In this document: positions 21,590-60,570 of the stretch, piece after piece | Layout: each line of letters starts with the position of its first letter | Numbering within the stretch: the stretch's first letter is position 1 | DNA from: Stratiolaelaps scimitus | Taxonomy: Eukaryota; Arthropoda; Arachnida; Mesostigmata; Laelapidae | Assembly: GCA_019614645.1 (NCBI GenBank) | Contig: JABWDB010000012.1 | Span: 3,534,001-3,598,000 of the forward strand | Length of the DNA stretch: 64,000 nt | Direction of reading: 5' to 3' | Made by a program: the position numbers and the translations under genes | Notes under the pieces: generated by a model | The model's input: only the letters and a program-made list of their open reading frames with translations | What the model was told of the DNA's origin: nothing | Database searches by the model: none

Positions 21590-22889
21590 TCGGTTTTGCG
21601 CTTGAAGATTTCCGGAGAATTGAGCATCTATCATTTTAGGGACCATCGTTTTTACAGCAGACAGCCGTCGTTGTAGTGACATTTCGTCAACATCCTCATT
21701 TTTACTGTCTCAACGTTTGCAATATTGTTGAACATACGACTAACACGGCTTTCATTGTTATATTTAATTTACTAAATATTCTATCACTGTATGTGAATCC
21801 AATATCCTTATTCGGTACATAGCCCGAAGGTTACAAGATTTAAAATAGCTAGATAATTACACTTTTCCAGGGAACTGATCCTGTCACCGCGGTACGAAAG
21901 AGAGTCTGTCCCCTATTTTCAATATTACCCCTTAATGATGCCCACTACGCTGTACGTGAGAACAGTTTGAACGGAGAAGTCTCAGAGAAGAAGTGCCCAG
22001 TCTCCTTAACGATTTCCCTTGGCCCTATCGTGGTGCGCACTTATGAGACGACATCGAACATCCTTGTGCTGACCGGCGGTTCACCCTTCGGGGACTGGAT
22101 GCGAGCGGTGCAACCCTGGGGAGTCGCTAGAAGCATTTCTCCTTTTATACGTTTTGCCATCCTGCATACGACACCAGCGGCCTGACTGCTACTCGGGCCG
22201 GCCCCTAGACCCTCAAATGTCCTATTACGCGTGAGACTCATTGTGGTCGCTTCCGTTGCTCGCCTCGTCCCCAGCCCTTTACGGGAAGTGGGGCATGCCA
22301 CTGTTTCTTTGATATGCTGCAGCCGTAGCGAGTCGCGCCCGCGTCCTGTTGCGGCGGAAGTTTCCTCCACTTATTCCTTCGTCTTCCTTTGCGCGAATTT
22401 CTCTCTCTCTCTCTCCTCTGTCTCGCTTCCTCTCGCTGTCACACTTGTGTTCTCCGCTCCTCTGGTATCATCTTTGTGTCGAGTTCGGTTGTGTTCTACT
22501 GTGCTGGTTGCTAGCCGCCTCAGGCGAGTGCTATATGTGACGTCCGATTCGCGCGCGTGGCACAGCACTTTCTGATGGCGTTGTTTTGCGATCGCTGTAG
22601 TACAGTAACGGCAGCAACAGGCCGATATCGGGTGGTAGCCGGGTGGCAGAGGCGGCGACAACAACAACGACAATAACAACTGGTGGTGGTGGTGGGGGGC
22701 TGACTGAAGGTGCGGGCGTGGGACTTAGAACTGCTTGCACCGTGGACAGGGTAAAGACCAACAGTGAGGCGCTTGTAGGAGATGAACAGCATAAAAAAGA
22801 AACGAAATTAGACGACGTTGGACAGAGTGGACCTCGTGGACAGCGTCCTGCCTTTCGAATTCGTATTGATTTCATTACTATTGTTATTA

Positions 22890-24340
22890 GTAATGACCAA
22901 AGTGACCAAAGTGACCAAAGTGATCTTCTCTTTGGACGCGCAGCTCGACCTCCAGCGGTCGCTCCCAGGATGCCGTCTCACTCAGAGGTTGTCCCTCGAG
23001 CTCGTCGGCTCCCCTCTCACGGACGAGGCCATCCGGCCGCTATTGGACCGTTGCCTCGAGAGGACGGCCGTGATGCTCGACCGACTGCCCCTGTTCTCGG
23101 CTCACCAGGGGCTGTTCCTCCTTCGGTCCTGTTTCTCGGCGGCACGCATGCAGCACTTGCTTAGGACATGCCCGGCCGGCACTGAGGCTTCAGCCCTTCA
23201 CGATTATGACGACATGGTGTTGGACGCGCTGACGACGATCCTGAACCTCCAGCTCCCTCCGGAGGCGGCGTCGCAGGCTACCCTTCCAGTCCGCTTCGGG
23301 GGCCTCGGCATTCTCAGTGTTCGCCGCTTGGCCGACGTTTGCTACGCCGCGTCGCTCACGGCGGTTGCCGACTTGGTCGCTACAGTCCTCCCCCCCGAGG
23401 CGCTCGCCCACTTCTCCGCCTCCCAGGAAGCTGCCCTTGACCAGACGGGCGCCCGCGCTCGGGTCCCTCCGGACAAACAGAGCAAGCAGCGGGCATGGTC
23501 CGATGCCCTGCACCAGGAGCTGCGGGACTCCCTCCTGGCCTCTGCGCCACACGCTGCTGACCAAGCTCGCCTCCGGGCTGTCGACAGGCCTGGTGCGGGG
23601 GCGTGGCTCCACGCGCTGCCCTCCTCGTCCCTTGGTACTGCTCTAGACGATCGCTCCCTCCGCTTCTGTGTGGGCCTTCGCCTCGGGGCCCCTGTAGTTG
23701 CGGCCCACAGCTGCGAGCGTTGCGGGGACCCCGTCGCAACGAATGGCCATCACGGTCTCTCGTGCGAACGCAGCGCCGGTCGCCATCCGCGACACACGAT
23801 GCTTAATGACACGCTCGTGAGGGCCCTCCACTCCGCCGGTATTCCTTGCACAAGGGAGCCACAGGGCCTCGACACCTCTGACGGCCGCCGCCCTGACGGC
23901 CTCACCCTTGTCCCCTTCCATCGAGGGCAGCACCTGGTTTGGGACGGCACTGTGGTTGACACTCTAGCACCCTCTTATGTCAACCACTGTGCAACCATCC
24001 CCGGTTACGCAGTAGCGCGTGCGGAACGGGCAAAGCTAAGGAAGTACGCCGCTCTCCAAGCAACCCACCTGTTTTCCCCCCTTGCCTTTGAGACCTTGGG
24101 CGGGCACGGCCCTCTCACTGCGAACTTCCTCGAGGGGGTCTACCATAGGCTGATCCGCGCCACCGGGGACAAGCGCGCTGGCTCTTTCCTCCTGCAGCGC
24201 CTGTCCCTCGCCGTGCAGAGAGGCAATGCCATCGCCTTCCTCGGGACATTGTCGTCCTCACCCCCCCCCCCCATAATCCCTAGAAATCCCGCCCTACTGT
24301 ATGTTTGAATAAATCGTGTCATTGTTATTATTATTATTAT
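22890..24340 (+). mobile_element. 5'-truncated non-LTR retrotransposon (restriction-like-endonuclease type)
   Basis: This is the 3' portion of a LINE-like element. It is much richer in GC than the flanking DNA. It keeps an open frame to a TGA at 24,306-24,308, then AATAAA at 24,309-24,314 and a TTA-repeat tail to about 24,340. The 10-bp word ATTGTTATTA occurs just before it (22,880-22,889) and at the start of the tail (24,321-24,330), a possible target-site duplication, although the low-complexity tail makes this uncertain. Three 9-bp copies of GACCAAAGT (22,895-22,921) sit at the 5' junction. The 5' edge is approximate. The polymerase core is missing, so this copy cannot be autonomous. Confidence 0.8.
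22922..24308 (+). pseudogene. Retrotransposon ORF fragment: RT thumb, CCHC knuckle, restriction-like endonuclease
   Basis: The frame opens upstream at 22,818 on a TTG with no credible start, as expected for a 5'-truncated copy. About 460 codons appear element-derived. The N-terminal third has the LRSC...LLRTCP and LPVRFGGLGI signatures that follow the palm in non-LTR reverse transcriptases; the catalytic palm itself is absent. At 23,712-23,765 there is a C-X2-C-X8-H-X4-C knuckle. It is followed by an arginine/histidine cluster, an RPD motif at about 23,889-23,897, WDGTVVD at about 23,940-23,960 and a downstream K-x2-KY. This order matches the PD-(D/E)XK-like endonuclease of R2-type and related elements. 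No internal stop is present, so the insertion may be fairly young. The exact clade needs a search. Confidence 0.8.
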
Positions 24341-49887: not shown

Positions 49888-51132
49888 ATGTCCAACGTAG
49901 CGTTTGCTGTAGCTATATCGATCGGAGGAGTTCCGTGTGTTCCCGCGGCAATTGCAATCTTCCTGCTGTTGTTTGCCGTGTACCGTCATCAGAATTACGT
50001 TCTCGTGCACAATAGAACTTCCATTGCGCAGGGACCAACGGTAAAGCTCACTACACATACGAAGGCACTGGAATCAATCACATGGGTAACGGCTGATGTT
50101 AACGGCACCACATGGGTAACGGCTGATGTTAACGGCACCACATGGGTCACTGGTTTCGGTGACACGGGAACTGGCTTTACTGAAACAGCCCAGCCCTCTT
50201 CAAGCTTCAGCAAACCCACGTGGTCCACGAGTTTTGACGGGAACACTGCGTCAGACAGCAGTCCTGCAAACGATGCAGTAGAGTTGGACCGTGGAAATTT
50301 CCGCAATGGGCTTCGACACCGCAAGATGCTTATCAAGCTCAAGCCACCGCCGGAACTTGACAACTGGTGCGGCAGTGATACAGAGAGCATTGATGGCTCG
50401 AAATATAAGATTCGGTATGATCTCACCCGCGTTGGTCCATACATGCGACATCCGCAGAAATACGCGGTCGAGCTTACGGTCAACCTATTTGTATGGGTTC
50501 CTTCGAGCAACTTGCAGCACGTGTATCCGTATACGGCCATATTCATCTTTCCACAGATGTTACCAAAAGAGGCGTTTGTGTTCGACTTTTGGCGCGTGGA
50601 AGCTAACCAGCATCTAGTAAGGCGTCTGCCCCTCATATTTGACAACGAGAGCCAAATTGACGGAAGGATGATCGCTCGAAGGAGCACCGCTGGCGAACCG
50701 CTGCACGAGTTCGAACTTCAGACGGCCAACAATGGAACGATGGACTTCAAGACGTTTCGTGCCAACTTCTCGATGGATCTAGCGAAGAAGCGGCTGATCT
50801 TCCAGTCGTGCCTTAACCATACGGGCGCGCCCGATGATTGTCGCATGCAGTTCAACCGGACGTTCGAACTGGGCCCCATCCCGAGTGGGCTGACACCCGC
50901 GGTGTACATCGTTTTGGGTCTGGACGATTCGCGTAGGAATCCGAACGGCAACGACCTTGACAAGCGCTTCATGTTGAACGCGACGCAAGCTGTTTGCTGC
51001 GAAATCTACGAAGAGGATGCACTCACGCACGAGCGCACGAAGCTGTGTCGAGTTAAAAACACAAGGCGGGTCCTACCCTGTCCTATAGGTTATCAGGACA
51101 TCGCTTGTGGAACATTTAAAAGGGGCTACTGA
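49888..51132 (+). CDS. Array gene 1: stalked single-pass membrane protein, Cys-rich ectodomain (unknown family)
   Basis: An intronless reading frame of 414 codons. The frame is open from 49,678, after an in-frame TGA, but the first ATG is at 49,888, and only that start aligns with the paralogues' N-termini. Seen: a hydrophobic segment at about residues 14-34; a Thr/Ser-rich stalk to about 155 with two perfect 10-residue repeats (TWVTADVNGT); then the ectodomain opening with LDNWCG. Conserved cysteines are at 161, 308, 318, 370, 371, 387, 398 and 407. Sequons include N42, N72, N82, N282, N293, N310, N323 and N364. It ends in CGTFKRGY. Cys17 in the membrane segment is unique to this copy. Inference: C-terminus outside the cell (type II), because the sequons and cysteines lie there. 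No canonical AATAAA is visible in the first 300 bases after the stop. I do not recognise the family and assign no function. Confidence 0.88.
   Translation: MSNVAFAVAISIGGVPCVPAAIAIFLLLFAVYRHQNYVLVHNRTSIAQGPTVKLTTHTKALESITWVTADVNGTTWVTADVNGTTWVTGFGDTGTGFTETAQPSSSFSKPTWSTSFDGNTASDSSPANDAVELDRGNFRNGLRHRKMLIKLKPPPELDNWCGSDTESIDGSKYKIRYDLTRVGPYMRHPQKYAVELTVNLFVWVPSSNLQHVYPYTAIFIFPQMLPKEAFVFDFWRVEANQHLVRRLPLIFDNESQIDGRMIARRSTAGEPLHEFELQTANNGTMDFKTFRANFSMDLAKKRLIFQSCLNHTGAPDDCRMQFNRTFELGPIPSGLTPAVYIVLGLDDSRRNPNGNDLDKRFMLNATQAVCCEIYEEDALTHERTKLCRVKNTRRVLPCPIGYQDIACGTFKRGY
50081..50140 (+). repeat. In-frame 30-bp minisatellite in gene 1 stalk
   Basis: Two exact 30-bp units (50,081-50,110 and 50,111-50,140) are followed by a partial third. 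Each encodes a 10-residue Thr/Val/Trp unit with one NGT sequon, so each copy adds a potential N-glycan to the stalk. Confidence 0.95.
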
Positions 51133-52232
51133 GCGATAGTATCCATAATTTGCTGTATGCCAGAACTTAGTAGTATTAGTGGTAGTATGTGGCTGTCTGT
51201 TTATAGGTTGCATACGCGCGCACACACACAACGGAAATATAGCGTTGTACCTTTTTGTTTGGGACATCATGTATCCATTAATGTATACGCATTTGCTGTT
51301 AGCACGTGACAAAAAGCTGATACGATAAACTCGCCCATTACATATACTAAGTAGACACCGTTTGCAATTAATGCAAATGAGGGACGCCACCACTTTTCAG
51401 TGTCATTAGGGATCTGGCCAAGTGTCTACAAAGGGCACAGCGATTATGTTTCGATTAGAGGACTATTCCATTAATTCTGTAAGTTTGCGTTCGTTTGTCG
51501 CGTATCTCTCATCAAGAAAATGTCGGGTGACATCTGCTCTCGAGTTGAACATCGATGTCCGTCATACGGACATTTATGCGATCACCGGTATTCGGCGTCG
51601 ATTAGGTATCGCCTCTGAAGAATCAATTCTATGAATTATCGATCCCCACTCTATTTGTGTAAGATGGCGAAAATATTCCAACTCTTCGAAAAACGATTGT
51701 TACTGAATCAAACAAGAATGTTGTTGATGTTTGACCAGCGTCGCTTTAAGATTGCTGTCGCGCCTCGGAAGTCGTGCGTTTTACGAACATACACAATAGT
51801 GATATTAATTAAAATTGCCACTGTTCGTGTTCCTCCGCAAAAAGAATCAGTAGACGGAAAATAATGGCAACAATAACAACAGCAAACGGCCACCGTGGGA
51901 TTCACAGGCAGAACAGAGCTGCGGCTGTGAATGCGGTAGCAGAGCTTACGTTGCTTCTCGTCATATCCTTACGGCCTACAACAGCCGTCAGCATTTAATT
52001 ATCACTGGGGGACCAGGTGACGCGGTAGCGGTGACGTTGACCAGCTCGCGATATTTCTCGATTCAAGTTTTACCACCTCGTTCTGATCGAGCCCTTAACG
52101 AAGTCGCCGAAGATCCGAGGTCGTGCAGCTCACGTTCAACAGTCGTGCCTGGCTGCCGGAGTCTGCAGTTTATACTGAACCATGGGAGTCCATTCACGGT
52201 AGTCAGGATTGATGATATTCATGGTCCTCATG

Positions 52233-52278
52233 CAGGTCCTCAAAGGTCTCACACAGGGCAACCTCCTTTGAGGACCTG
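52233..52278. repeat. Perfect 14-bp inverted repeat, 18-base loop
   Basis: Arms CAGGTCCTCAAAGG (52,233-52,246) and CCTTTGAGGACCTG (52,265-52,278) are exact reverse complements. It lies about 535 bases before the gene 2 start. A perfect 14-bp stem is rarely expected by chance in a window of this size. It could be a hairpin in the gene 2 5' region or a rearrangement scar. Confidence 0.85.
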
Positions 52279-52582
52279 GGCGGAGGAAAATGCGTTAGAA
52301 TGACAGGTGTTTTGCATCAATTCGCCAGCTTTGTGATAGCTTCTTCCACAGAGCTCCTATGGTAACTCAGTGTATATTTGTAGATCATCCGCGAACAGTC
52401 TATGAGGAAGAACGAGGCCGCTTAGCAGGTGGGTGGGTATTCCCATCGAACAATTTCACAATCCCCATTCTATTGGTCAGTGTCTTATTGTTGTATGTAT
52501 ATGGGTTAGTTTCTTTTCCGTACAAAATGTCAGACGTCTTTTAGGTTGCGTGGGGCTGCCATTGCATTTCAGGGGGCACTAA

Positions 52583-52616
52583 CATATATATATATATATA
52601 TATATAATATATATAT
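52583..52616. repeat. (TA)n microsatellite
   Basis: About 34 bases of TA with one AATA interruption, some 200 bases before gene 2. Confidence 0.9.
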
Positions 52617-52812
52617 GTGGAATAGATCAAACGCGCCCGCATTCTGTCATTTCCATTGACGTTGTACCTTCCATCATATGGAGATTGACGTTGCTCCTGC
52701 GAATGGATTTGTGTATTGTCTACGACGCTTGCCGTCGCACAGCTAGATACAGTCTATTAAATAACAACGACGAATTCGTCCGCGCATCTCGAGCGGGCGC
52801 GTTAATAGTTAA

Positions 52813-53961
52813 ATGGCAGAGGACCACATAGCAGTTCAGGTGGCGGTACCTGTGCCTTCAATTCCGCTATTTCCAATCGTAGTTATACTCTTCGCTATAC
52901 TGCTGGGTCTTCTAATAGCTGACATCTACCTGTCTCACCATCAGCGCCAAGCTCTGTTGCTCAATCGGACGACCGCGACGCCAACACCGACGGCAAAACT
53001 GACCCCGACGGAAGCGGCTACGCGTACGACGGCAGCGGCTACGCCTACGACGGCAGCGGCTACGCCTACGACGGCAGCGGAAACGACGCTGAGTCGGATT
53101 CACCACTACACGAACGTCACGAAGCATGCAACTGTTCCAACCGAGACGGTCGCGCCGATCGCATCGACAAAGCTGCCCCCACCCGAACGACTTGATAACT
53201 GGTGCGGCAGCGCTGTACGCGATATCGACGGCTCCAAGTATAAGATCCTCTATGACCTCACCAGGGTCAAGCAGTTCATGAAGCAGCCGAACAAATACGC
53301 GGTCGACCTGACTGTCAACCTTTTCGTCTGGGTACCAGTGTCTAGCCTGCGGTACCACGCGCCCTACTCTGGCATATTTATATTTCCACAATTGAAGCCA
53401 AAGTTGGCGATTTTGTTCGACTTTGACCATTATCAAACGGGTGGTCAACGCGTGCGAACGTTGCCCTGCCACTTCAAGAACGAACGTGACATTAAAGGTT
53501 CCCGGATAGCGCGGCGGGCCACGCAAGGGACGGTGCTGAAAAAGTTCGATATTCAAGAGATGCATAATCGGACGATGCATTTCAAGACTTTTCGTGCGAA
53601 TTTCTCTGTGGATCTAGCTAAGAAGCGAATGATCTTTCAGTCGTGCATCAACGACACTGGCTCGGTGACCGATTGCCGAATGCAGATCAACTCAACGATT
53701 GATCTTGGCGATATACCAATGGGTCTAACTCCGGCCGTGTACGTCACAATGGGATTAGATTCAACGAGAGGTTCAACGAGGGATTACGGAACCTGGATTC
53801 AGATTAATGCTACGCAAGCAATCTGCTGTGAAGTGTACGGCGACTTGTCGGCAATGGGGAGACGGACAAAACTGTGCCGGGTTATGGGAAGTAACCGAAT
53901 CGTTCCCTGTCCTGCCCATTGGCAGCAGGTGGCGTGTTCGACGTTTCAGAGAGGATATTGA
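52813..53961 (+). CDS. Array gene 2: stalked single-pass membrane protein, Cys-rich ectodomain (unknown family)
   Basis: An intronless frame of 382 codons. The codon just before the ATG is an in-frame TAA, so this start is firm. Membrane segment at about residues 17-40, sequon NRT at 51, then a Thr/Ala/Pro-rich stalk (about 52-120) with a 7-residue repeat of the PTTAAAT type. The ectodomain begins LDNWCG. The eight conserved cysteines are at 131, 278, 288, 338, 339, 355, 366 and 375, and an extra unpaired-looking Cys219 occurs only in this copy. Sequons: N51, N101, N252, N263, N280, N293, N332. The C-terminus is CSTFQRGY, where the other four have CGTF. A possible AATAAA lies at 54,376-54,381, about 415 bases after the stop. 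The N-terminus is slightly acidic and the post-membrane segment slightly basic, which is not the usual charge bias for type II topology, so topology rests on the sequons and cysteines. Confidence 0.88.
   Translation: MAEDHIAVQVAVPVPSIPLFPIVVILFAILLGLLIADIYLSHHQRQALLLNRTTATPTPTAKLTPTEAATRTTAAATPTTAAATPTTAAETTLSRIHHYTNVTKHATVPTETVAPIASTKLPPPERLDNWCGSAVRDIDGSKYKILYDLTRVKQFMKQPNKYAVDLTVNLFVWVPVSSLRYHAPYSGIFIFPQLKPKLAILFDFDHYQTGGQRVRTLPCHFKNERDIKGSRIARRATQGTVLKKFDIQEMHNRTMHFKTFRANFSVDLAKKRMIFQSCINDTGSVTDCRMQINSTIDLGDIPMGLTPAVYVTMGLDSTRGSTRDYGTWIQINATQAICCEVYGDLSAMGRRTKLCRVMGSNRIVPCPAHWQQVACSTFQRGY
53014..53076 (+). repeat. In-frame 21-bp minisatellite in gene 2 stalk
   Basis: Three 21-bp units at 53,014-53,034, 53,035-53,055 and 53,056-53,076. 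The last two are identical and the first differs by one base (GCG for GCC). A partial fourth follows. It encodes a Thr/Ala/Pro heptad with many potential O-glycosylation sites. Confidence 0.95.
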
Positions 53962-55235
53962 TTCGGGTCGATTTTTGGCAGCGATTTGTTTACGTATGAT
54001 CTTTCTCTCTGTCTCTCTAGGTGTTTGTACTTTTGGTTCATTTACGCTTGTAACGTTTGAGGTGCGGGCCGGGCTCTGATGGAGGAAACGGTGGTGCTAA
54101 CAGGTTGGACCTGTTTGAGCGATGTGATGCGTCGACCTCTACATTATTTTGTTAGCTCATATTATATTTGATATATGTATATATATATATAACGATATTC
54201 AGGAATAGCTGATTTGATTTCACGAGTTCGTAGTTTGATTTTACACTCGACTACAGACTGCTTGCAAACGAAGCCAGAATTTTCTTCCAGTTGGGTTTCG
54301 ACCTCGCTTTTACGAGTGCACCTCTCCTCCATCGACCAAAGCCTGAGCTAAAAAGCTCAGCTATAATATGAACAAAATAAAGTAAATGTTTGTGATTTCC
54401 ATTTCCATTGCAGCAGACAGAGGGTGGAAAACACTCATCTGATCCACAGTGTGCATGAATACACAGGTTCAAATCCATTCAACTCAATTAAAATGCACCT
54501 TTATTTTTAACGGGGTTCGGTTGTACACTTAAACATAACTGCGTAACGTGTCGTACAATATGTCATCAGGGACAATATCGGGTCGATGATCACTCATAGG
54601 TGGGTGGTCGATTACACGTAATATTCATCATGATGAACTAAGGAAGATGTTGACACTGCAGGAATAAGATGGTAATTTCTCGATTGGTTCCAGCCAGAAA
54701 TCTACTCCGTCTACCTCCTCATCAGGGATTATATATGATCTATATACAACAGATAGTCAACAGATAGTGATGCAACATCGATACTTTACACAAAATGCCG
54801 TAAACTGTAATCATTCCAGCAAGTAGGGCTCGCATAGTGTCCTCTTCAGACGAAGCTGCCACAGATTCTTCGACAGATCAACACTCGCCAAGCTCGCTTC
54901 CAGCGCTGTGTTGATCTTCGCGTTTGCTTGGGTAATGTTGCACTTCCGGGTCGAAATTGTACAGGAAAGCTAGAAGTGAATGAACAACGTTGTTCTTTGT
55001 TAAATTTGTAGTAGTGTGACCTTTTCCCCAACGGCTGTTAAACTTTGGCAACATAGATGCGACGGTTCACCGGTTTCACCACTGCCCAGGGTGGTTTTAT
55101 CAACGAATGATGTGCAAAGCCAGAGAGAGCCGCAAGTTTGTGTCCCCTTGGACGATGTATCCCTTTGAAGAAACACGCATTTAGGCTGAGATTAATTGAA
55201 AACAAGTGGGCAGATGTTACAGATTAGTTAACGAA
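53962..55235. other. Gap between array genes 2 and 3
   Basis: No supportable gene. It holds a short TA tract near 54,173-54,192, a possible gene 2 polyadenylation signal at 54,376-54,381, small inverted repeats near 54,099-54,115 (AACAGGT/ACCTGTT) and 54,351-54,368 (CTGAGCT/AGCTCAG), and a 10-bp inverted repeat at 54,875-54,917 (AGATCAACAC/GTGTTGATCT). The last 230 bases before gene 3 belong to the duplicated 5' block listed separately. Confidence 0.6.
54376..54381 (+). terminator. Possible polyadenylation signal of array gene 2
   Basis: AATAAA, 415 bases after the gene 2 stop. It is the first canonical hexamer seen downstream. No transcript evidence is available. Confidence 0.35.
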
Positions 55236-55467
55236 CTCCACGACCACCAATAGACAAACTTCTTGATCTCGGCCACTTCGAATAGTTCGTATCGTTTCAA
55301 TGTTCGCATTGAAGCAGTGAAGCCCTTCGGGTACGATCGATACTCGGTTGTCTCAACGCTGTCAAAAATAACGAACCGCGATCGCTGGGGTTAGAGGGGG
55401 CCAGGAATCTGGCTCAATTCTCCTCGTCTCGCGAGACTGCTGCCGGCAGGTCGCCACATAGAGACCC
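55236..55467 (+). promoter_or_regulatory. Gene 3 copy of the duplicated promoter/5'-UTR block
   Basis: About 210 bases immediately before the gene 3 ATG are almost identical to the block before gene 4 (57,016-57,264). Differences are a handful of substitutions and one indel of about 17 bases near the upstream end. It contains a perfect hairpin with a TTCG loop at 55,296-55,313 and an in-frame TAG three codons before the ATG. No TATA box is obvious. Recent duplication explains the identity; shared regulation of genes 3 and 4 is an inference from it. Confidence 0.65.
55296..55313 (+). repeat. Conserved 7-bp hairpin with TTCG loop, gene 3 copy
   Basis: TTCAATG and CATTGAA flank TTCG. It is identical in the gene 4 copy at 57,093-57,110. 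It may be an RNA hairpin if it lies in the 5' UTR. Confidence 0.7.
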
Positions 55468-56628
55468 ATGGCGGGGGCGGACAGTGTCGCTATTTCAGTT
55501 GCTGTGCCCATGATGGGTTTCCCTCTATTTCCGATCGTAGTATTCCTTGGCGCTGTAGTGCTCGCTGCGCTAATTACAGACTTCTATATGTTTTATAATC
55601 AGCGAGTCGTTCCGATGTATAATCGAACAACAGTTCCGTCAACCACGCGAGCGAGCACATCTCATATCACGAATCTGGTAACCAGAAGCACTGAGATGAA
55701 CAGAACCCCAACTACTCCTGAGGAGGAGTCGACCACCCCGGAGGTGCTAGATACCGAAACAATGGCTTCTTCAGAGGAGGCTCCGTCGACTTCAGCCTCA
55801 GAGGCAAGCTTCACATCGACGACAATCATCCCGCCAGGAAAGATTGATAACTGGTGCGGCACCGACACTCGAGACATTGACGGCAGCAAGTATATGGTCG
55901 AATATGATCTCCACCTGGTCAAGCCATTTATGAAGCAACCGGATAAATACACGGTTGACTTCAGTGCGAATATTTTCGCCTGGATGCCCGAAAAGGGGCT
56001 ACGCCTTAGAAATCCATATTCCGCAATCTTCATCTTCCCGCAGGTGCTACCGGAGCGAGCTATTTTATTCGACTTTTTCAACTACGAATTTGGTGGACAG
56101 CGCGTGTGGACCATGCCGGTAAGTGTCAAAAGGCCAAAATCGATCAAGGGATATAGGATAGCAAGTAACATTAAGCTCCGCGGCGAGAAGCTGAAGAAAT
56201 TCGACTTCCAGGACTTGACGATATCGAAAGAGAAATTCAAGAGCTTTCGGGCGAATTTGTCCATCGATCTTGCGAAGCATCGCGTGATTCTACAGTCGTG
56301 CGTAAATAGCACAGGTTCGGCCCATGATTGCCGAATGCAACTGAACAGAACCTTTGAGAAGAACTATATACCTGACGGAGTGTCAGCGGCCTTCTACGTC
56401 GCGATGGGTCTCGACCGTTTGCGAAGGAACTGGGTGCGTAATCCTAAGAGACTTAGGGCTCTGAAGTTAAATGCGACACAGGCGATCTGCTGCGAGATCT
56501 ATGCGGACAACGTGCCGACACCCGGCGAACGAACAAAGATCTGTCGTGTAAAAGGCAGTGAAGGCTTCGTACATTGTCCGCGGAACTACCAGGACACATC
56601 ATGTGGAACGTTCATGAGAGGCTATTAA
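55468..56628 (+). CDS. Array gene 3: stalked single-pass membrane protein, Cys-rich ectodomain (unknown family)
   Basis: An intronless frame of 386 codons with an in-frame TAG three codons before the ATG. Membrane segment at about residues 18-42, NRT sequon at 52, then a Thr/Ser/Glu-rich stalk (about 55-122) with only two TTPE-type units where gene 4 has a long array. The ectodomain starts IDNWCG. Cysteines are at 130, 278, 288, 341, 342, 359, 370 and 379. Conserved sequons are at N263, N280, N293 and N335; the NGT/NRT site near residue 252 of gene 2 is lost. It ends CGTFMRGY. It is the closest relative of gene 4, formed with it by a tandem duplication that includes both flanks. Confidence 0.9.
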   Translation: MAGADSVAISVAVPMMGFPLFPIVVFLGAVVLAALITDFYMFYNQRVVPMYNRTTVPSTTRASTSHITNLVTRSTEMNRTPTTPEEESTTPEVLDTETMASSEEAPSTSASEASFTSTTIIPPGKIDNWCGTDTRDIDGSKYMVEYDLHLVKPFMKQPDKYTVDFSANIFAWMPEKGLRLRNPYSAIFIFPQVLPERAILFDFFNYEFGGQRVWTMPVSVKRPKSIKGYRIASNIKLRGEKLKKFDFQDLTISKEKFKSFRANLSIDLAKHRVILQSCVNSTGSAHDCRMQLNRTFEKNYIPDGVSAAFYVAMGLDRLRRNWVRNPKRLRALKLNATQAICCEIYADNVPTPGERTKICRVKGSEGFVHCPRNYQDTSCGTFMRGY

Positions 56629-56838
56629 GCGTCGATTATTGCTCCGATGTTATTAGATAGGTATTACTGTGTGTTATCGACAGATTGATTTAAAGTTTTC
56701 TTTTGGTATATAATATATAGTAGATAGATTAGGGTGATGTTAATAAACTAGAAAAGGAGACTTATTCTCCTCAAAATATTGTCAACTACTTCGTTCCTTT
56801 CAAGCGTGCAATAATCGGTCCTCGATCCATAATGACGT
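56629..56838 (+). other. Gene 3 3'-UTR block, duplicated after gene 4
   Basis: About 200 bases after the gene 3 stop align closely with the region after the gene 4 stop (58,543-58,750). Both contain AATAAA (56,742-56,747 here), about 115 bases past the stop. Confidence 0.7.
56742..56747 (+). terminator. Polyadenylation signal of array gene 3
   Basis: AATAAA, 113 bases after the stop, conserved in position in the gene 4 copy. Confidence 0.6.
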
Positions 56839-56841
56839 GCA

Positions 56842-56882
56842 TATACTATACTCATCCAGCATCCGTGGATGAGTATAGTATA
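56842..56882. repeat. Perfect 17-bp inverted repeat, 7-base loop
   Basis: Left arm 56,842-56,858 (starting TATACTATACTC) and right arm 56,866-56,882 (ending GAGTATAGTATA) are exact reverse complements around GCATCCG. The left arm lies where sequence similarity to the gene 4 downstream region ends (CTATACTC at 58,752-58,759). The right arm has no counterpart there. This suggests the second arm arose by fold-back copying at a rearrangement edge. Confidence 0.92.
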
Positions 56883-57015
56883 ATTCGCGTATATTTGTGT
56901 GGGGGCCCGGTGAGTTCGCCCGGTGGCATGGTGCATTCGTGTGCCTCTCGCAATCGGGACGCACACGAACAACATATTAGTTAGGACTAATATGTTAGGA
57001 AGACATTACATAATA
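56883..57015. other. Hairpin-rich segment at the gene 3/4 duplication junction
   Basis: It contains two more inverted repeats: a 9-bp pair at 56,936-56,944 and 56,961-56,969 (TTCGTGTGC/GCACACGAA, 16-base loop) and an 11-bp pair at 56,971-56,981 and 56,986-56,996 (AACATATTAGT/ACTAATATGTT, loop TAGG). No counterpart exists after gene 4. A small foldback or MITE-like insertion is possible, but no flanking duplication is visible. Confidence 0.7.
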
Positions 57016-57264
57016 GTTAACTACCACCAATAGACGAGTTATCTATGAGATTTTTCTTCTTGATCTCGGCCACTTCGAATAGTCCGTATCGTTTCAATGT
57101 TCGCATTGAAGCAGTGAAGCCCTTCGGGTACGATCGATACTCGGTTGTCTCAACGCTGTCAAAAATAACGAACCGCGATCGCTGGGGTTAGAGGGGGCCA
57201 GGAATCTGGCTTGATTCACCTTGTCTCGCGAGACTGCTGCCGGCAGGTCGCCACATAGAGACCC
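57016..57264 (+). promoter_or_regulatory. Gene 4 copy of the duplicated promoter/5'-UTR block
   Basis: Near-identical to 55,236-55,467. It carries about 17 extra bases near 57,036-57,053. The TTCG-loop hairpin is at 57,093-57,110, and the same in-frame TAG lies three codons before the ATG. Confidence 0.65.
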
Positions 57265-58542
57265 ATGGCGGGGGCGGACAATTTTGCTATTTCAGTGGCT
57301 GTGCCCACGATGGGTTTCCCTCTATTTCCGATCGTAGTATTCCTTGGCGCTGTAGTGCTCGCTGCGCTAATTGCCGACATATACATGTTTTATAATCAGC
57401 GAGTCGTTCCGATGTATAATCGAACAACAGGTCCGTCAACCACGCGAGCTAGTAGGTCCCATACCAAGCATCTCATAACCAGAAGTACTGAAATGATCAC
57501 AACGTCCACAAGGAGCACAACTACTCCTGAGGAGATTAGCACCACTCCTGAGGAGGTTAGCACCACCCCTGAGGAGGTTAGCACCACCCCTGAGGAGATT
57601 AGCACCACTCCTGAGGAGATTAGCACCACTCCTGAGGAGATCAGCACGACCGAATCGGTTCCAGCTACCGAAACAACAGCTACTTCAGAGGAGACTCCGT
57701 CGACTTCAGCCACGGAGCCAAGCGTCACACCGACGACAAGTGTCCCGCCAGAACAAATTGATAACTGGTGCAGCACCAACACTCGAGACATTGACGGCAG
57801 CAAGTATATGGTCGAATATGATCTCCACCTGATCGAACCATTTATGAAGCAACCGGATAAATACACGGTTGACTTCAGTGCGAATATTTTCGCTTGGATG
57901 CCCGAAAAACAGCTGCGATTTCTAAATCCATATTCCGCAATCTTCATCTTCCCGCAGGTGCTACCGAAGCGAGCCATTTTATTCGACTTTTTCAACTACG
58001 AATCTGGTGGACAGCGCGTGTGGACCATGCCGGTAAGTTTCAAAAGCCCAAAATCCATCCAGGCGTATGCAATAGCAAGTAACATTACGCTCGACGGCGA
58101 GAAGCTGGAGAAATTCGAGTTCCAGGATTTGACGATATCGAAAGAGAAATTCAAGAGCTTTCGGGCGAATTTCTCCATCGATCTTGCGAAGCATCGTATG
58201 ATTCTACAGTCGTGCGTAAATAACACGGGTTCGCCCCGTGATTGCCAAATGCAATTGAACAGGACCTTCGACACTGGCCATATACCTGAAGGGGTGTCAG
58301 CGGCCTTCTACGTCACGATGGGTCTCGACCATTTGAGAAAGAACAAAATACATGATCCTAAGAAACCTGTGGGCCTCTGGTTAAACGCGACACAGGCGAT
58401 CTGCTGCGAGATCTATGCGGACAACGTGCCGACACCCGGGGAACGAACGAAGATTTGCCGTGTTAAAGGCAGTGAAGGCTTCGTGCATTGTCCGCGGAAC
58501 TACCAGGACACATCATGTGGAACGTTCATGAGAGGCTATTAA
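57265..58542 (+). CDS. Array gene 4: long-stalk single-pass membrane protein, Cys-rich ectodomain (unknown family)
   Basis: An intronless frame of 425 codons, the longest of the five. Membrane segment at about residues 18-42, NRT sequon at 52. The stalk (about 55-162) is extended by an array of STTPEE(I/V) heptads. The ectodomain begins IDNWCS, with Ser replacing the Gly that follows the first cysteine in the other four copies. Cysteines are at 169, 317, 327, 380, 381, 398, 409 and 418. The last 53 residues are identical to gene 3 despite seven nucleotide differences. It ends CGTFMRGY. It arose with gene 3 by tandem duplication; the longer stalk accounts for the 39-residue size difference. 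Confidence 0.9.
   Translation: MAGADNFAISVAVPTMGFPLFPIVVFLGAVVLAALIADIYMFYNQRVVPMYNRTTGPSTTRASRSHTKHLITRSTEMITTSTRSTTTPEEISTTPEEVSTTPEEVSTTPEEISTTPEEISTTPEEISTTESVPATETTATSEETPSTSATEPSVTPTTSVPPEQIDNWCSTNTRDIDGSKYMVEYDLHLIEPFMKQPDKYTVDFSANIFAWMPEKQLRFLNPYSAIFIFPQVLPKRAILFDFFNYESGGQRVWTMPVSFKSPKSIQAYAIASNITLDGEKLEKFEFQDLTISKEKFKSFRANFSIDLAKHRMILQSCVNNTGSPRDCQMQLNRTFDTGHIPEGVSAAFYVTMGLDHLRKNKIHDPKKPVGLWLNATQAICCEIYADNVPTPGERTKICRVKGSEGFVHCPRNYQDTSCGTFMRGY
57514..57642 (+). repeat. In-frame 21-bp minisatellite in gene 4 stalk
   Basis: One 24-bp unit (57,514-57,537) is followed by five 21-bp units (57,538-57,642), each encoding STTPEE plus Ile or Val. Units differ at only a few positions. Gene 3 has only two degenerate copies at the same place, so the array expanded after, or contracted since, the duplication. 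Confidence 0.95.
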
Positions 58543-58763
58543 CCGTCGACTATTGCTCCGATGTTATTAGATAGATATTACTGTGTGTTATCGACAGATT
58601 GATTTAAAGTTCCCTTTTGGTATATAATATATAGTAGATAGATTTGGGTGATGTTAATAAAGTAGAAGAGGCGAATACCCTCAAAATATTTTCAAATACT
58701 TCGTTCGTTTCAAACAGACAATCATCGGTCCTCGACCCACAAAGACAATCGCTATACTCGATC
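58543..58763 (+). other. Gene 4 3'-UTR block
   Basis: Aligns with the region after gene 3 up to CTATACTC at about 58,752-58,759, where similarity stops. AATAAA lies at 58,656-58,661, 114 bases after the stop. Confidence 0.7.
58656..58661 (+). terminator. Polyadenylation signal of array gene 4
   Basis: AATAAA, at the same distance from the stop as in gene 3. Confidence 0.6.
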
Positions 58764-59550
58764 TTATTTATTCTAGTAAACGGAGACCAAAATATGCTGC
58801 GATTGTATCTTCAGTGCTAAAAAAATATGCTGAAACAACGAGGCCGTATTTCGGGTACTATATTTGTTTAAGATAACGACTTTAAACCTTTCCATCATTA
58901 ATATCTATCATGTAACAGAATGCCATTTCTGTCAAACTATTACTTTATAAAAAGCAAGTATTTTATAGCCGAGCGGAGCTTCGTCATTTGTATATTTACG
59001 TATGAAACCCTAGCACTCAATACGTATAGTAAATACTCTATAAAAGGCGTACACGCTAGCCTACGTTATTCCGTTCGGTGTTTCAATATTATTTTATAAT
59101 CGCGGCTAACAAGACGAATGTTGAACTAAACCTTCATTTGCAGGTGACACGATATACCGGATCACGCCTCTGATCAGCAGTTGAAAGCCACTGATTAGCA
59201 ATTGAAGGCCGACTATATCATATTGCCTTAATCCGATTGTAGGTGGATGGTTCCTTTGTCAATGGTACACAGCGGTGGACCGCTGTCGTGGACTAAAGAC
59301 CGGCTGTCACTTGGCGCCATCGCTGCCAAGACATGATGATTACAGCAACGTTTGCAAGCCTTCTGAACATGTTCTTTGCTAACAATTCTTTAGCTCAGCT
59401 TGATAGCGCAACAATAACGAACCACTCGAGACGAAGCGTTTAGGTAGTGCAAGCGGAAAAGAGACCAACAGGCACAGGGACGGTGGAAGACAGTCGGATC
59501 ACTTTGCCCTATTGGGGCACAAACGATAAACGAACTCTGACCTGTTCGCC
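58764..59550. other. Gap before array gene 5
   Basis: No supportable gene. It contains a TATA-box-like TATAAAAG at 59,039-59,046, an imperfect 20-bp direct repeat (59,170-59,189 and 59,191-59,210, 17 of 20 matching), and a 7-bp inverted repeat CAGCGGT/ACCGCTG near 59,270-59,285. Confidence 0.6.
59039..59046 (+). promoter_or_regulatory. Candidate TATA box for array gene 5
   Basis: TATAAAAG lies about 505 bases before the gene 5 ATG. If used, it implies a 5' UTR of about 480 bases or a spliced leader exon. No experimental start is known. Confidence 0.35.
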
Positions 59551-60570
59551 ATGGCCGTAGCTGACAGCGTGGCTATTGATGTCGCAGTTCCTCTTTCTCC
59601 GATCCCGCTAGTGCCGATCATCATATTGCTCGCGCTTCTTCTGATCGCTGCGTTGGCAACCGACATCCATCTGTATATCCGCCAGCGGATAGTTCCTTTG
59701 TACAATCGGACGACGCGGGCGACGACGCAGGCGGCGACGCAGGCCACCACCTTCACGAAACCGTCAACGAGGCTGGTCCCGCCGGCGCGGCTGGACAACT
59801 GGTGCGGAACCGACACGAAGACAGTTGACAGTGCGATCTACAAGATTCGATATGATCTCACTCTGGTTGAGCCGTTCATGAGGCAGCCGAAGGTTTATAC
59901 GGTAGACCTTACCGTCAACTTATTCGCCTGGGTACCTGTGAAACACCTGCATCACGGCTATCCGTATACCGCGATATTCATCCTGCCGCAGACGGTGCCG
60001 AAGCAGGCATTTATTTTCGATTTCTGGAACTACGAACTCGGTTTGCAGCAAGTATGGAGGCTACCGGTTGACTTCGACAAGGAGGCGAATATCAAGCCTC
60101 GTGCCATCGCTAAGAATATCAGCCACACTGGTCAACAATTAATGCCGTTCAGGATTCAGAATATGAATAACGGGACTATGGCCTTCAAGACGTTTCGTGC
60201 GAATTTCTCCATCGATCTATCGAAAAGGCAGTTGATTCTTCAGTCGTGCATTAATTACACCGGCAAGGCCCACGATTGCCAAATGCAATACAATTCAACG
60301 GTAAAGATCGGCAACATCCCACTGGGCCTGACGGCAGCCGTGTATGTCACAGTGGCCGAGGATACGGCAAGGATCAATAGACACGGTGATGTTGTCGGCG
60401 TCGACTTTCAGCTAAATGCAACACAGGCCGTCTGTTGCGAGATTTATAAGGATGATGAAAAAACAGGTAAGCGAATAAAGGTCTGTCGAGTTCAAGGCAC
60501 GAACAAGGCCGTGCCGTGTCCACCATATTGGCAAGACGTCTCCTGCGGGACGTTCCAGAGAGGATATTAA
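59551..60570 (+). CDS. Array gene 5: short-stalk single-pass membrane protein, Cys-rich ectodomain (unknown family)
   Basis: An intronless frame of 339 codons with a good start context (GCCATGG) and an in-frame TAA eight codons upstream. Membrane segment at about residues 18-42, NRT sequon at 52. The stalk is the shortest of the five, about 30 Thr-rich residues with a small TQA repeat. The ectodomain starts LDNWCG. Cysteines are at 85, 233, 243, 295, 296, 312, 323 and 332. Sequons include N188, N206, N218, N235, N247 and N289. It ends CGTFQRGY. This copy shows the minimal architecture and suggests that a long stalk is not required for the fold. AATAAA follows at 60,883-60,888. Confidence 0.88.
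   Translation: MAVADSVAIDVAVPLSPIPLVPIIILLALLLIAALATDIHLYIRQRIVPLYNRTTRATTQAATQATTFTKPSTRLVPPARLDNWCGTDTKTVDSAIYKIRYDLTLVEPFMRQPKVYTVDLTVNLFAWVPVKHLHHGYPYTAIFILPQTVPKQAFIFDFWNYELGLQQVWRLPVDFDKEANIKPRAIAKNISHTGQQLMPFRIQNMNNGTMAFKTFRANFSIDLSKRQLILQSCINYTGKAHDCQMQYNSTVKIGNIPLGLTAAVYVTVAEDTARINRHGDVVGVDFQLNATQAVCCEIYKDDEKTGKRIKVCRVQGTNKAVPCPPYWQDVSCGTFQRGY

Follow-up and report, generated by a model that had tools for sequence, protein, structure and literature searches.

An array of intronless genes for anchored, stalked, cysteine-rich proteins with a predicted lectin-like head in the mite Stratiolaelaps scimitus

Five intact genes with a common architecture

A 64,000-nucleotide stretch of the genome of the predatory mite Stratiolaelaps scimitus (GenBank assembly GCA_019614645.1, contig JABWDB010000012.1, positions 3,534,001 to 3,598,000; the window hereafter) carries a group of five related genes, here called g1 to g5. 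An initial annotation, made from the letters alone, had described them as a tandem array of same-strand, intronless genes for stalked surface proteins, and we indeed found five intact ATG-to-stop open reading frames on the + strand (Table 1), each with no in-frame ATG between its start codon and the preceding stop. Across the alignment g1 to g4 are 50–52% identical to g5, and every member is recovered from every other by tblastn. Synonymous divergence (dS) is saturated or nearly so in nine of the ten gene pairs (2.1 to infinite), with nonsynonymous divergence (dN) of 0.39–0.55, and these values argue that the frames are real coding genes under selection at the protein level; the tenth pair, g3/g4, is recent, unlike the other nine. 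An AATAAA lies 114–415 bases past the stop codon in four of the five genes (g2 to g5) and was not found within 500 bases past the stop of g1. Only g3 and g4 share many upstream words, as would be expected from their duplication.

The proteins share the layout that had been read from the letters. Kyte-Doolittle windows of 19 residues exceed 1.6 only near the N-terminus (best mean 2.35–3.03 in g1 to g5), a stalk of 24–108 residues follows this membrane segment, and the ectodomain is 252–257 residues long, counted from its first cysteine. Eight cysteines stand at fixed spacings of 147–148, 10, 50–53, 1, 16–17, 11 and 9 residues, and the motifs NWC, QSC, CCE(I/V)Y and RGY are found in all five array genes. 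Much of this extends to a set of nine members that includes sequences from outside the array (below). A strongly hydrophobic segment lies in the first 40 residues of all nine, and it is the sole such segment in the seven sequences that were scanned whole (g1 to g5 and two database proteins, P0001 and P0002). The stalks of the same seven contain 32–58% Ser, Thr and Pro, and their chains end just after the cysteine-rich tail, in RGY or, for P0002, GGH. Asparagine-linked glycosylation motifs (sequons) at g5 N218, N235, N248 and N289 are kept in 8, 9, 9 and 8 of the nine members, respectively; together with the Ser/Thr/Pro-bearing stalk they argue for an extracellular C-terminus. Four of the nine members (g2, P0002, L003 and L007) have one odd extra ectodomain cysteine, at a different position in each, which could form interchain bridges. 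Stalk length is altered by in-frame tandem repeats in g4 (TTPEE(I/V)S, 57520-57651) and in g1 (WVTADVNGTT, 50079-50147).

Table 1. Genes and features of the array (positions in the window) and further family loci on contig C12.
Feature	Location	Strand	Description
g1	49888..51132	+	414 amino acids (aa); anchor, 100-residue stalk, ectodomain with NWC at 159; extra Cys17 in membrane segment
g2	52813..53961	+	382 aa; anchor, 70-residue Thr/Pro-rich stalk, ectodomain with NWC at 129; extra Cys219 in ectodomain
g3	55468..56628	+	386 aa; anchor, 69-residue stalk, ectodomain with NWC at 128
g4	57265..58542	+	425 aa; anchor, 108-residue stalk with TTPEE(I/V)S repeats, ectodomain with NWC at 167
g5	59551..60570	+	339 aa; anchor, 24-residue stalk (shortest), ectodomain with NWC at 83
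g3 duplication unit with 5' and 3' flanks	55259..56836	+	blastn; two blocks, 93% and 89% identical to g4 unit
g4 duplication unit with 5' and 3' flanks	57056..58746	+	blastn
g5 predicted ConA-like sandwich	59791..60450	+	ectodomain residues 8-227, approximate; last strand overlaps start of tail; AlphaFold models and VIA-align rows
g5 C-terminal Cys-rich tail	60433..60570	+	CCEIY to RGY and stop; corresponding tail frozen between g3 and g4
L003	C12	-	345 aa, intact
L007	C12	-	365 aa from ATG; all eight Cys; ends ...CKT without final RGY; most divergent member
L008	C12	-	decayed; longest frame without NWC part; two TGA inside match

Other family members and duplication history

A search of the whole genome (426.4 Mb in 145 contigs) with g5 as query, at E-values up to 0.001, gave 12 matches at eight loci, all of them on contig C12 between 3519845 and 3682124 (about 162 kb). 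A count of five therefore holds for the array and falls short for the genome, which has three more loci nearby: one intact, one without the last residues and one decayed. Two TGA codons lie inside the longer g5 match at L007. Between the array and the loci outside it lies a fragment that resembles a major facilitator transporter (L017:5953-6468, +; E 8.2e-5, below the Pfam cut-off).

Among 5.77 billion database proteins, in a search limited to predicted genes that have five-residue words in common with the query, P0001 and P0002 (47% identity) were the sole matches at E up to 10 (4762 candidates; 7996 in a second, capped set). Both belong to one source type (lgn), and for each the record gives 9 contigs, the longest of 11,670 bases, figures whose agreement suggests, without showing it, that the two lie on the same contigs. 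As a control, the mite's own ERGIC-53 was run against the same database and returned Tropilaelaps, ticks, spiders and many other arthropods among the best 120 of 1136 matches; absence of the family from such lineages is thus real at the sensitivity of this search.

In an unrooted maximum-likelihood tree of the nine members P0001 joins g3/g4 (support 72) and P0002 joins g2 (support 67). Since the two join different paralogues, the paralogue classes probably predate the species split, and some of the duplications would, on this comparison of sequences and with weak support, be older than the separation from the source of P0001 and P0002. The proposal of a lineage-specific expansion consequently fits g3/g4, the only clearly recent duplication (dS 0.21, with the unit copied together with its flanks), and sits less easily with the rest of the family; we rejected a species-specific expansion on the same grounds. 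The role proposed along with it, in facing hosts, microbes, mates or toxins, is an inference. Haplotype duplication was also rejected as the source of g3/g4, since the two units lie on one contig and are 89–93% identical, and the genome paper gives a heterozygosity of 0.062–0.068% (PMC7936031). The main text of that paper makes no mention of lectin, intronless, single-exon, orphan or tandem.

Change is unevenly distributed between g3 and g4. The tails differ by no replacement in 112 sites and by 6 synonymous changes in 32. For the other regions the corresponding counts are 49.5 in 501 and 22.5 in 132 (lectin-like part), 24.3 in 145 and 13.7 in 53 (stalk), and 5.5 in 118 and 4.5 in 38 (anchor together with the N-terminus). 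Replacement-rich windows lie around g3 residues 208–267 and 268–347, and the second of these covers the loop that is most variable among the nine members (ectodomain residues 201–210). As read from the sequences, this pattern agrees with a constant framework that bears loops free to change, and is no proof of positive selection.

Elsewhere in the window a 498-codon open frame (22812-24308, +) occupies a GC-rich stretch (60%) and has no Pfam match; it resembles, and may be, the C-terminal part of a retroelement. Rfam (gathering scores) and tRNA scans of the window gave nothing, and there was no informative telomere repeat in the first 6 kb of contigs C1 to C5 and C12 or in the last 5.3 kb of C12.

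Predicted fold and a possible recognition function

Two AlphaFold models, both with g5 as first sequence, predict that about 220 residues of the ectodomain form a sandwich like that of ConA and L-type lectins, with a cysteine-rich tail of about 45 residues behind it; structures were compared by Foldseek and VIA-align. We tentatively favor, at somewhat less than an even chance, the explanation that the genes encode type II surface glycoproteins on mucin-like stalks, with a predicted ConA-like head, that serve in recognition or adhesion and form a small, old, diversified family in which duplication continues. Such a protein would be held in the membrane by a single signal-anchor helix and the short cytoplasmic N-terminus before it, with a Thr/Ser/Pro-bearing, presumably O-glycosylated stalk raising the head above the membrane, and the head would be a beta-sandwich of the ConA-like (L-type-lectin-like) kind that a disulfide-rich tail closes off. 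With anchor and tail fixed, assembly and display would be uniform across the paralogues, and the faster-changing sandwich loops would let the paralogues differ in ligand; the likeliest ligands would be glycans or glycoproteins carried by other cells, by microbes or by material from prey.

A number of our results, presented together here, speak against this explanation. The Foldseek matches are weak (TM-scores below 0.45 in the rows shown), and a coronavirus spike entry stands at rank 1 in the PDB lists. The L-type lectin model PF03388 was listed for none of the nine members of the ectodomain alignment at E up to 10, in a test where HMMER filters drop most matches above about 0.1, and its six matches in the genome are on C5, C43 and C28, with none on C12. 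When the nine ectodomains were compared by hhalign with ERGIC-53 heads (116 rows from 115 distinct sources, one entered twice; VIP36 and other branches left out), the result was Prob 0.2% and P 0.32, or P 0.076 over 7 columns in global mode, both profiles being shallow (Neff 2.4 and 2.1). A correspondence to the ERGIC-53/VIP36 sequence that had been drawn by eye was therefore rejected. Given no PF03388 match and no significant hhalign result, we do not class the family as L-type lectins, though its members may work like them; equally, the predicted head may bind no sugar. The earlier judgment that the ectodomain could be matched to no named family agrees with Pfam, NCBIfam, PHROGs and PDB sequence searches, none of which gave a convincing match; the best stray matches were to FIN1 in Pfam (E 0.00088, P0002 alone, below the cut-off, spanning the juxtamembrane region and stalk) and to a CidB/LrgB model in NCBIfam (E 0.0045, one member).

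The spike entries, along with the intronless frames and four BFVD rows at E 0.001 or better, might instead suggest captured viral or mobile-element glycoproteins, that is, an endogenous viral gene cluster that was amplified later, and a retrotransposon with reverse transcriptase (RVT_1) and CCHC knuckles in two long open frames does lie just downstream of the window end (L011:1-4133, +). We rejected the spike rows as evidence of viral origin because they are low-TM sandwich matches, and among the BFVD rows the top four reach TM-scores of only 0.13–0.28. Among IMG/VR viral contigs 77 pattern matches yielded 0 confirmed (a search that reaches only relatives sharing two conserved peptide patterns), nothing fell below E 0.02 in PHROGs, and the few open reading frames near the array that were scanned with Pfam revealed no further viral gene. 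We consider such a capture very unlikely.

The proposed orientation also meets an objection. A single hydrophobic segment, the sequons and the cysteines support one N-terminal anchor with an extracellular C-terminus, but the flanking charges do not: net charge is 0 to -3 on the N-terminal flank in all nine members and -1 to +2 on the C-terminal flank, the reverse of the positive-inside preference, so that an N-in orientation is not favored. Taken at face value these charges would place the C-terminal domain on the cytosolic side, which we regard as highly improbable in view of the eight invariant cysteines, the sequons conserved in nine or eight of nine members and the mucin-like stalk. The hydrophobic segment could also be cleaved, or the stalk cut, and the heads would then act as soluble lectin-like factors in the saliva, gut or haemolymph of the predator. 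The stalks are long and partly repeat-rich, as is common in targets of shedding; however, in the seven measured sequences the hydrophobic windows above 1.6 extend over 32–42 residues, which exceeds the usual core of a signal peptide, and signal peptides usually begin with a positive charge, which the N-terminal flanks here do not carry. Secretion or shedding thus seems to us possible but on the unlikely side.

Finally, the g3/g4 data do not compel diversification. By Fisher tests on rounded counts the tail differs from the domain (p = 3.5e-5), and its replacement changes from its synonymous ones (p = 8e-5), but the domain/tail boundary was set after the identical tails had been seen and these p-values are descriptive only. 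Within the lectin-like part, replacements are less frequent per site than synonymous changes (p = 0.02), a purifying pattern, and the overall dN/dS of the pair is 0.46, so that relaxed constraint explains the pattern as well as diversification does. Tandem paralogues with uneven constraint might also be expected of gamete or mate-recognition proteins diversified under sexual or self-recognition pressure. This we think quite unlikely, given that selection on g3/g4 is purifying overall and that the sequenced isolate is described as parthenogenetic (PMC7936031), yet at least six frames are fully intact.

Comparison with known lectins and receptors

The known L-type lectins (ERGIC-53/LMAN1, VIP36/LMAN2, Emp46/47; PF03388) resemble the mite proteins in the predicted sandwich of about 220 residues, and provided the best structural rows with both models, but there is no sequence or profile match between them. 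They are type I cargo receptors with a cytosolic sorting tail, whereas the mite family is anchored at the N-terminus, where the only hydrophobic segment of the seven scanned sequences lies, and its chain ends in the cysteine-rich tail. The mite encodes an ERGIC-53 of its own (L029), and its contigs C43 and C28 carry additional PF03388 exons. The carbohydrate-recognition region of this ERGIC-53 is contained in one uninterrupted 403-aa frame (L029:1099-2310, -; around C5:2638737-2639405), unlike the matches on C43 and C28, which are split into pieces. Legume lectins, which are soluble plant proteins, are 5–10% identical to the mite heads in the rows shown.

Two kinds of receptor resemble the family in its proposed layout. 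The neuronal pentraxin receptor is a type II membrane protein that carries a ConA-like C-terminal domain on a coiled-coil stalk; the likeness is in layout only, since no sequence match was found, and the coiled coil is unlike the mite stalk. The type II C-type lectin receptors of the NK complex, with their short N-terminal tail, anchor, stalk and disulfide-rich head, are similar both in layout and in forming tandem clusters of paralogues, but their fold is unrelated to the ConA-like fold and no C-type lectin Pfam match was found among the family sequences. It is conceivable, though we consider it rather doubtful, that the family is a mesostigmatid invention: stalked, membrane-bound type II receptors built on a lectin-type sandwich whose ancestry can no longer be read from its sequence, in which the disulfide tail stays frozen and the ligand loops diversify, functionally like the vertebrate type II lectin-receptor clusters. 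Full-text searches of open-licence literature, whose coverage leaves most subscription journals outside, listed no arthropod type II mucin-stalked membrane protein with a ConA-like head. If the head does bind ligands, this small single-exon cluster would be an easy test bed for the diversification of a recognition family, and would open a molecular way to study how a predatory mite in commercial use detects microbes, its prey or its mates.

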